This document shows positions 4,656 to 6,628 of a stretch of DNA of 6,628 bases, piece after piece. Positions within the stretch are counted from its first letter, which is position 1. Each line of letters opens with the position of its first letter. The notes beneath the pieces are model-generated. The model was given only the letters and a program-made list of their open reading frames with translations. It was not told where the DNA came from and searched no databases. Source of the stretch: Gammaproteobacteria bacterium (GTDB taxonomy: Bacteria; Pseudomonadota; Gammaproteobacteria; Woeseiales; Woeseiaceae); contig PBBK01000014.1 in the NCBI GenBank assembly GCA_002717685.1, positions 1 through 6,628 on the forward strand, read 5' to 3'. The translations under genes were made by a program, and so were the position numbers.

Positions 4656-5216
4656 TTAAGAATTTGCTGGCCTTAGTATTTTCCCGCTCTTTAAAACTCT
4701 AATTTCTGTTGGACCAGTTATTGGTCCACAAATACCAGGCAATATAAAATCTACCTGGTTTTGAAGTTGTTTTCTTAATACATGTATATTTTTAATAGGC
4801 GGTTTACCCGTAATATTAGCACTTGTGGATATTATTGAAGAATTTGATGCGTGGCAGAGCTTCATAGCAATTGAATGAGATGTAATTCTTACAGCTATGC
4901 ATTTATGTTTTCCTGATATCCAAAATGGTATTGGTTGTTTACCAGGAACAATCCAAGTAGTGGGTTTTTTTGAAGCAGCCAAAAGATCATCGTTGTTTGA
5001 AAGGAATACCCATGGTTTTAGCTGATCTAAGTTAGCACCAATAATAATAAGACCTTCAGATGGATTTCTGTTTTTTATGTGTAGAATTCGTAAAACAGCT
5101 TTTTTATTTTGTGGTAAACACCCTAATCCAAATACACCTTCTGTTGGATAAGCGACTACGCCCCCGTTTCTGATGATCCGCCCTGCTTTTTTTATGGGTT
5201 CAGAAATAATGATTAT
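4656..5216 (-). CDS. tsaC: Threonylcarbamoyl-AMP synthase (TsaC/YrdC), non-canonical start
   Basis: Makes threonylcarbamoyl-AMP from threonine, bicarbonate and ATP for tRNA t6A modification at A37. Read from the ATA at 5216 it is 186 residues, close to E. coli TsaC (190). Motifs in order: VVAYPTEGVFGLGC (20-33), Lys48 and Arg50 in IKNRNPSEGL, GANLDQLKPW, IAVRIT, STSAN (130-134) and GPTEIR near the end. The distance from the N-terminus to AYPTE agrees with E. coli within two residues, so the gene is full length. No ATG, GTG, TTG or CTG occurs in frame between the upstream stop (5219-5217) and the TTG at 4982 (residue 79), which is far too deep to be the start. Candidates are ATA 5216, ATC 5213, ATT 5210 and ATT 5207; ATA is preferred because it overlaps the topA TAA as a decayed ATGA junction. 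The usual WPGP loop is replaced by SKKP. The start is uncertain; the family call is firm. Confidence 0.85.
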   Translation of the reverse strand: MIIISEPIKKAGRIIRNGGVVAYPTEGVFGLGCLPQNKKAVLRILHIKNRNPSEGLIIIGANLDQLKPWVFLSNNDDLLAASKKPTTWIVPGKQPIPFWISGKHKCIAVRITSHSIAMKLCHASNSSIISTSANITGKPPIKNIHVLRKQLQNQVDFILPGICGPITGPTEIRVLKSGKILRPANS

Positions 5217-6628
5217 TTACCACTGACTATCTTCTTCGATGTTTTTTTCTTTTTTCCTCGGCGTTTTCGTTCGGGGGCAGCTGCAAGTAATTTTTCACAT
5301 TCTTCAAGTGTTAGGGATTCAGGATCTTGGTCTTTCGGTACTCGAGCATTTTTCTTTTTGTTTGTAATATAAGGGCCATAACGTCCATTTAATACCTGTA
5401 TACCTGCATCCTCAAAGTTATGGATAATACGATTAGCATCGGCAATTTCTTTTTCCTTTATAAGTTCTAATGCCCGGGAAATATCAATGGTATAAGGATC
5501 TTCATCTCGGGGAATGGAGGCATTTTTTTTATTACCGTAGTTGATGTAGGGCCCAAAAGGCCCTGTTTTCGCTAAAATATCTATTCCTTCCGGTGTTTTT
5601 CCAAGTATGCGCGGCAGTGAGAATAATGCTAGTGCCTCCTCAAGCGTTAGATTTTCAACGGATTGCTCAGGACGCAGTCCAGCAAATTTTGGAGTTTCTT
5701 CATCCTGATTCGTTCCAATCATTACATACGGCCCCCGGTGACCCATACGAACGGAGACAGGCTTATTACTTTCTGGATCTATACCGAGGTCACGAGAACC
5801 GAGGGCTTCGCTTCTGGTTACATTTTGATTTTGATTAATTAAATCTGTAAAGGGTTCCCAGAATTCTTTTACGAGTGGTTTGAATTGTTTTTCCCCACGG
5901 GAGACAGCATCAAGCTGATTTTCTAATTTGGATGTAAATTCATAATCAACGTATTGGGAAAATCGTTCAGTTAAATATTTATTGACTAATTTTCCAGTAT
6001 CAGTCGGTTGAAAACGTCTTCCATCCATATCCGTATATTTTTCCTGTAGTTTGGCAATAATTGTCGCGTATGTAGAAGGTCTGCCGATGCCATGCTCTTC
6101 AAGAGTTTTAACAAGGCTTGCCTCAGTAAATCGGGGGGGAGGTTCTGTAAAATGCTGTTCCGTTCTTAAAATGTCGATTGTTATGATGTCACCTTTATTA
6201 ATTTCAGGTAGTAGTTTATCACTGTCATCAATGACTCTATCATCTTTACTCTCCTGATAGACGGCCATAAAACCTGGCTTGACAAGTATTTGTCCATTTG
6301 CTCTAAATTGGTGTGCTTTTGAATTATCTGGTTCAGTTGATAAGTCTATTTTTACTGTATCAAAAACAGCTGCTTCCATTTGGCTAGCCATGGTTCTTTG
6401 CCATATTAGTGTATAGAGTTTTAATTGATTTTCATCGAGAATTGTTTCCATTGATTCCGGTGTACGTGTAATCGATGTAGGTCTAATTGCTTCGTGAGCT
6501 TCCTGAGCATTTGCAGCTTTGTTTTGATATGTTTGAGGTTTATCAGGAACATTCTCATTACCAAAACGATTACGTATCATTTCCCTAATTTCATCAATTG
6601 CATCAGAAGAAAGGTCTACTGAATCTGT
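5213..6628 (-). CDS. topA: DNA topoisomerase I, C-terminal two-thirds of the visible domains (5' end off window)
   Basis: The frame is open to the right edge, giving the last 471 residues; type IA topoisomerase I proteins have about 770-870. It relaxes negative supercoils through a tyrosyl-DNA link. The fragment begins with TDS, matching the YMRTDS active-site motif, so the catalytic tyrosine should be three residues beyond the edge. Next come QEAHEAIRPT, and LVKTLEEHGIGRPSTYATII of the gate domain. The C-terminus carries three repeats with a G-x-x-GPY core (HRGPYVMIG, PFGPYINYG, RYGPYITN), the Toprim C-terminal repeat type, then a lysine/arginine tail (RKRRGKKKKTSKK). There are no zinc-finger cysteine quartets, unlike E. 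coli; this architecture is common in Legionella- and Xanthomonas-like gammaproteobacteria. The TAA stop overlaps the proposed tsaC start, implying translational coupling. Confidence 0.97.
   Translation of the reverse strand, partial: TDSVDLSSDAIDEIREMIRNRFGNENVPDKPQTYQNKAANAQEAHEAIRPTSITRTPESMETILDENQLKLYTLIWQRTMASQMEAAVFDTVKIDLSTEPDNSKAHQFRANGQILVKPGFMAVYQESKDDRVIDDSDKLLPEINKGDIITIDILRTEQHFTEPPPRFTEASLVKTLEEHGIGRPSTYATIIAKLQEKYTDMDGRRFQPTDTGKLVNKYLTERFSQYVDYEFTSKLENQLDAVSRGEKQFKPLVKEFWEPFTDLINQNQNVTRSEALGSRDLGIDPESNKPVSVRMGHRGPYVMIGTNQDEETPKFAGLRPEQSVENLTLEEALALFSLPRILGKTPEGIDILAKTGPFGPYINYGNKKNASIPRDEDPYTIDISRALELIKEKEIADANRIIHNFEDAGIQVLNGRYGPYITNKKKNARVPKDQDPESLTLEECEKLLAAAPERKRRGKKKKTSKKIVSGK

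Follow-up and report, generated by a model that had tools for sequence, protein, structure and literature searches.

A tsaC gene without a canonical start codon in Woeseiaceae-like Gammaproteobacteria, with AUC as its candidate start

Known non-canonical starts and the tsaC locus

The closest described systems are bacterial genes with conserved non-canonical start codons, in the first place the autoregulated infC gene, which starts at AUU, AUC or AUA (AUH). Its start is reported as ATC in Streptomyces (PMC5472188) and as AUA in S. aureus (PMC13009471). Weak, IF3-sensitive initiation at a non-canonical codon is described for E. coli infC and for Streptomyces sigR, where the start codon is GTC (PMC5472188), and in E. 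coli the inefficiency of an AUU start limits pcnB (as cited in PMC1780047). Outside infC, conserved non-canonical starts are likewise reported for cvfC1 (AUU) and ccpN (AUA) of S. aureus, both at sites with extended Shine-Dalgarno motifs (PMC13009471), and for Listeria rnhC (ATC); a survey of Listeria gives fixed non-canonical starts for 6 of 2265 conserved genes (PMC13068326).

The gene considered here is tsaC, whose depletion, like that of tsaD, is reported to cause cell death in E. coli and B. subtilis (PMC9654439). It shares with infC an AUH codon at the putative start, to be read by the initiator tRNA. However, infC has GGAG upstream whereas tsaC has only a GG at -8/-7, and IF3 feedback on tsaC is putative. 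The comparison with E. coli pcnB involves another gene, codon and organism. The sigR gene encodes a regulator, and its start was proven by mutation and by the protein N-terminus (PMC5472188), whereas tsaC encodes a tRNA-modification enzyme and its start is proposed from sequence comparison. In contrast to the S. aureus cvfC1 and ccpN sites, tsaC has no extended Shine-Dalgarno motif. None of the titles found in a literature search on tsaC, its start codon and t6A concerns a non-canonical tsaC start.

The window, by which we mean the whole 6,628-nucleotide stretch analyzed, has a G+C content of 35.7% and contains the 3′ part of topA, tsaC, a dapA-like gene, aroE, gor and xth (Table 1 for the tsaC region). 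The tsaC product scores well above the curated cut-off of the Sua5/YrdC domain (PF01300, 140.3 against 25.1 bits) but below the NCBIfam equivalog cut-offs of NF007919 (TsaC type 1; 161.1 against 175 bits) and TIGR00057 (109.1 against 123.2 bits). TsaC is nevertheless its best family, so the protein is a divergent TsaC-like one, in which sense the name tsaC is used. Its best solved structures are 2mx1 (threonylcarbamoyl-AMP synthase) and 1hru (YrdC), and its translation carries the KxR...SxN motif (KNR, plus STSAN) that is named for TsaC in PMC9654439.

Table 1. Coordinates of the features in and around the start region of tsaC in the window
Feature	Position	Strand	Remarks
topA 3′ part (DNA topoisomerase I)	5213..6628	-	stop TAA 5215-5213; ORF list, Pfam PF01131 and PF13368
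tsaC, 185 codons plus stop, counted from ATC	4656..5213	-	PF01300
KxR motif (KNR)	5067..5075	-	codons 48-50; lost with a start at TTG 4982
108-aa ORF from the first in-frame TTG (gene-caller version), N-terminally truncated	4656..4982	-	matches P0002, 99% identity
Conserved start-region block (T/G)TGGTAnnnAATCATTnnnTCTGAAnnnATAAAAAAAGC	5185..5223	-	identical at named positions in the window, G183, G189, G103 and G211
ATA (start proposed earlier)	5214..5216	-	not conserved: AGA in three relatives, CTA in the fourth
ATC, most likely tsaC start	5211..5213	-	invariant, 5/5
ATT, second candidate start	5208..5210	-	invariant, 5/5

The start region of tsaC in the window and in relatives

Read on the minus strand, the frame of tsaC has its upstream stop, TAA, at 5219-5217 and continues with ATA (5216-5214), ATC (5213-5211), ATT (5210-5208) and ATT (5207-5205), after which it reads TCT GAA CCC ATA AAA AAA GCA. 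The original prediction, made from the window alone, held that no canonical start precedes codon 79 and that frames shifted by one base meet stops before the A7 run at the N-terminus, and the observation is confirmed: ATG, GTG, TTG and CTG are absent from codons 1-78, the first such codon is TTG 4982-4980 (codon 79), and the two other frames run into stops close to the junction. With the codon frequencies of the window, a run of 78 codons without ATG, GTG or TTG has a chance probability of 0.115, or 0.07 when CTG is counted as well; taken alone, the run in the window is not rare and proves little. The absence exceeds chance because the N-terminal sequence is conserved and the same absence recurs in four other genomes. 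Furthermore, tsaC must start upstream of codon 79, because codons 1-78 carry conserved TsaC sequence including KxR.

Relatives were found by a whole-genome search of 196 genomes of one order, 192 of which gave a match, and by a second search in the family of G183 (107 genomes, 104 with a match), which includes the Woeseiaceae genomes G002, G004 and G006 (loci L002, L004 and L040). Four close relatives (G183, G189, G103 and G211) have genomes of 1.1 to 2.0 Mb with approximately 35% G+C around tsaC, keep the dapA-like, aroE, gor and xth neighbors beside it, and encode products with 52-57% amino-acid identity to that of the window. A canonical N-terminal start is absent in all five clade members. 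Each of the four relatives contains a single TsaC-like match and no second at E 1e-3, which tells against the suggestion that another TsaC gene serves as a backup. No TsaC match was found in G210 and G212; G210 has priA and agcS, but its contig ends at 31,119.

For a wider comparison, 93 tsaC loci were counted (L049-L052, L059-L104, L109-L111 and L156-L195); outside this count are L053-L058, which are weaker or YciO-like, the second copies L105-L108, L112 and L113, and unfetched family matches. An ATG, GTG or TTG lies 18-26 codons before the proline of AYPTE in 88 of the 93, and the five exceptions are the four relatives and L094. The latter locus, from another family member (G221), has CTG at the position homologous to ATC and no ATG, GTG or TTG nearby.

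The coding frame of tsaC is under purifying selection, with dN 0.44 and dS 1.79 between the window and G183, and dN 0.15 and dS 1.13 between G183 and G189. Across the three main branches, the TsaC proteins are 52-66% identical and dS is 1.4 to 4.6. Within the first 12 codons from ATC, G183 and G189 differ by synonymous changes only (CCG/CCA and TCT/TCA).

Public protein collections reflect the same start region. The cluster nearest to the window, P0002 (23 members), is the 108-aa truncation and matches at 99% identity over 58% of the query. Among the best 120 matches to the G189 protein, six clusters are N-terminally short, namely P0121 (22 members), P0122 (14), P0123 (24), P0126 (25), P0128 (1) and P0137 (7), where members are clustered sequences rather than independent genomes. 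The same 120 matches include 186-aa clusters of 54-59% identity that start with M or L (P0124, P0125, P0127, P0130 with 384 members, P0131, P0146 and P0153), two of which agree in their first residues with the sister genomes G207-G209. Since gene callers expect ATG, GTG or TTG, they truncate such proteins in public collections, and an essential enzyme would score as broken.

The start region itself forms a conserved block (Table 1), the first 23 named-and-free positions of which occur once each in G183, G189, G103 and G211, whereas a search of seven other genomes did not find them; a search of viral contigs with the block pattern gave 0 matches. In the relatives, TopA is divergent (31-38% identity over part of the query) and the first base of the topA stop codon lies 20, 54, 54 and 38 nt upstream of the position of ATA. 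Because these stops lie upstream, the block is not topA coding sequence in the relatives, although it overlaps the end of topA in the window. The same distances reject the proposal that tsaC is translated only through coupling to topA. A single base belongs to both the ATC and the stop of topA in the window; the resulting TAATC resembles TAATG, a common stop-start overlap. The consensus folding energy of the tsaC leader was -0.06 kcal/mol with no covariation, and hence no conserved RNA structure was found there. A divergent TopA with another C-terminus adjoins tsaC in seven clade genomes (L105-L111), while TopA of the window is of the ordinary gammaproteobacterial type; this difference at the same syntenic place possibly reflects an in-place replacement.

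Candidate start codons for tsaC

The invariant ATC ATT (5/5) supports the earlier view that tsaC has an AUH-type start near the topA stop, although not at ATA. AUA or AUU had been proposed; the ATA codon varies in relatives and is rejected for this reason, together with the idea that a G-to-A change at 5214 destroyed an ATGA overlap, whereas AUU is retained as second candidate behind AUC. The reading that we favor, at a probability of about 0.6, is that tsaC of these AT-rich, small-genome Woeseiaceae-like Gammaproteobacteria is intact and starts at AUC, with the adjacent AUU as the alternative. We infer the use of AUC, its efficiency and a control of tsaC by IF3 as follows. An ordinary initiator tRNA, with anticodon CAU, would match AUC at two of its three bases, as on infC mRNA; initiation would be weak and held down by IF3; and the output of TsaC would be low, rising as IF3 becomes scarce. 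At -8/-7 from ATC, a GG is the sole Shine-Dalgarno-like element in the leader, and it would act at most as a weak one.

The position of the ATC can be compared with canonical starts elsewhere. ATC lies 22 codons before the AYPTE proline and ATT 21, and in the 93 loci a canonical codon is found at distance 22 in 22, 21 in 5, 20 in 37, 19 in 28 and 18 in 25, counts that overlap since one locus can count more than once. Several points speak against an AUC start. No strong or extended Shine-Dalgarno sequence was found at proper spacing before the ATC, unlike in infC of this family and at the S. aureus sites in the literature; this is a real weakness, although such a sequence is not taken as class-defining. 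A bare AUC start does not call for the conservation that extends upstream as far as TTG/GTG, ATC and ATT are conserved equally, and canonical codons are commoner at the downstream distances of 20, 19 and 18 than at the ATC position.

A start at the AUU one codon after ATC, the codon used by E. coli infC and pcnB, would accommodate the invariance of ATT in all five members just as well. This ATT aligns with the ATG of G201 and G124 (MNSVPIRRA and MNSLPIQRA; L088 and L060), and an AUU start also suits the tauE-like gene described below. Nevertheless, a canonical codon occupies its place in only 5 of the 93 loci, against 22 at the place of ATC, and infC of the family uses ATC; we therefore regard AUU as an unlikely start. 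The conservation upstream of ATC would fit a start at the TTG that opens the block (GTG in the window), one base out of frame, followed by a +1 shift within seven codons, before or at the conserved TGA, into the tsaC frame. The frame (T/G)TG GTA nnn AAT CAT nnn nTC TGA is intact in 5/5, continuous conservation begins at TTG/GTG, the variable columns upstream of ATC are confined to one codon of that frame, and the sister genomes G207-G209 (L109-L111) have an in-frame TTG nearby. In the programmed +1 frameshift of the prfB type, a TGA stop follows soon after the start codon and the next frame is the gene. The tsaC block shares the TGA shortly after a start-like codon, but it lacks CUU-UGA, and neither an internal Shine-Dalgarno sequence nor any slippery site was recognized in it. 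Moreover, G183 and G189 differ by CCG/CCA, a change that is synonymous when read in the tsaC frame but not in this one, and no like arrangement was seen at agcS, priA and the tauE-like gene, which also lack canonical starts. A frameshift seems quite improbable.

That the window is one contig would suit a sequencing or assembly error, which the original prediction had allowed for, or a decaying pseudogene whose function is supplied by TsaC from elsewhere; yet the start is missing from four other genomes and from several truncated protein clusters as well, the frame is intact with dN well below dS, and the four relatives show no second TsaC match at E 1e-3, making error or decay very improbable. 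A protein that starts inside the domain, at TTG 4982 or at a GTG or ATG chosen by gene callers, is scarcely credible: automated calls do begin there (P0002, P0121-P0123, P0126, P0128 and P0137), but the call sites vary between clusters, and such a protein would lose conserved N-terminal sequence and, in the case of TTG 4982, also the KxR motif.

infC, other genes and the initiation machinery

The AUC reading of tsaC can be set beside infC of the same family. In all 37 infC loci read, ATC occupies the place of the start codon and GGAG lies no more than 16 nt before it; 30 of these loci come from the family search (86 of 107 family genomes with a match over the cut-off) and seven from eight others, of which L125, a weak partial match, was left out. 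By the same comparative argument, these bacteria would therefore already use AUC to start a gene. Fourteen of the 37 loci, that of G183 among them, contain no ATG, GTG or TTG between the upstream stop and the ATC. The other 23 have at least one such in-frame codon upstream of the ATC, at varying positions, which weakens the argument from infC.

Further genes were sought in part of two genomes, 709 kb from G103 and 764 kb from G183, whose comparison gave 312 gene pairs, 308 of them usable. The scan is blind to genes with a chance in-frame ATG, GTG or TTG, and infC itself was not flagged. At a threshold of at least 10 residues, 33 pairs were flagged: in 13 the aligned stretch, 43 residues long in one case, contains a stop; 16 are free of stops but span no more than 10-20 residues, which conserved untranslated DNA could also produce; and four are stop-free frames of 39-89 aligned residues with a canonical start in neither genome. 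These four are tsaC, agcS, priA and a tauE-like gene, the latter three names being presumed from recognition of their sequences. A normal control pair (G072/G097; 38 usable pairs) yielded three flagged pairs, none above 16 residues, and a sister pair (G207/G209; 17 usable pairs) yielded one doubtful stop-free frame of 40 residues, at identity 0.40 and in a stretch with Ns; the control pairs are too few to prove an enrichment of start-less genes in the clade.

The three additional genes were each sought in 14 genomes, and their starts were read in the clade. In agcS (L310-L315, L317 and L318), a gene for a sodium:alanine-type symporter whose public matches carry PF01235, a canonical start near the beginning is absent in seven of eight clade genomes, the exception being G209 with an upstream in-frame ATG. 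ATC or ATT lies near the place where relatives have ATG, and the ATC of G103, G183, G210 and G211 coincides exactly with the ATG of G124 and G135. The public proteins nearest to agcS of G103 are N-terminally short (P0211, 461 aa; P0212, 448 aa; P0313, 457 aa; P0322, 471 aa), whereas the others among the best 120 matches have 522-579 aa. In priA (L296-L302; G103, G183, G210, G211, G212, G209 and G207), all seven genomes lack a canonical start over the 34 or more codons that follow the upstream stop, and each has GTC or GTT at a distance of nine bases from a preceding AGG or GGG, with an intervening CTG in G207 and G212. The IF3-repressed GTC start of Streptomyces sigR, with a third base other than G, is relevant to these codons (PMC5472188). 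The tauE-like gene (L347-L353) has ATT at one position in all seven clade genomes, with AAGG, GAG or AGG upstream; two codons after it, G189 has GTG where G103 and G183 have CTG, so that six of the seven lack a canonical codon there.

The initiation machinery of these genomes was also compared. An initiator-tRNA anticodon-stem pattern was matched in 11 of 14 genomes, with no match in G103, G208 and G212. Among the 16 stem stretches, three have GAT replacing CAT (G209, G124 and G201). ARAGORN, run on all 16 loci, called eight tRNA-Met(cat), no tRNA at the three GAT stretches and none at L329 (G207; CAT stem on a short contig). The six initiator tRNAs examined, four from the clade and two from other family genomes, are ordinary, with anticodon CAU and a GGG/CCC stem. 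On these six tRNAs and the lack of a tRNA call at the three GAT stretches, an altered initiator tRNA is rejected. A comparison of IF3 between six clade loci and 30 others of the family, from which one locus with Ns was excluded, shows differences at ten sites, four of which fall within residues 82-86, taken to be the linker; these sites show nothing decisive. Neither the initiator tRNA nor the IF3 differences explain the starts alone.

This kind of non-canonical start is already known from infC, pcnB, sigR and rnhC, and it is the number of genes that is unusual here. We tentatively consider it possible, if somewhat doubtful, that third-base recognition at the start codon has relaxed throughout the lineage, AUC, AUU, GUC or GUU having replaced the AUG or other canonical start of relatives in infC, tsaC, agcS, priA and the tauE-like gene. 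If the level of IF3 controlled these genes jointly, t6A formation, replication restart and transport might all follow the capacity for initiation. Should a single lineage indeed have several genes that start at AUC, AUU or GUC, they would form a natural set in which to test whether the choice of start codon links gene output to IF3, and the same set would also probe how far bacterial start recognition can drift.

Elsewhere in the window, the 3′ ends of the convergent genes gor and aroE share 18 bases (2732-2749).
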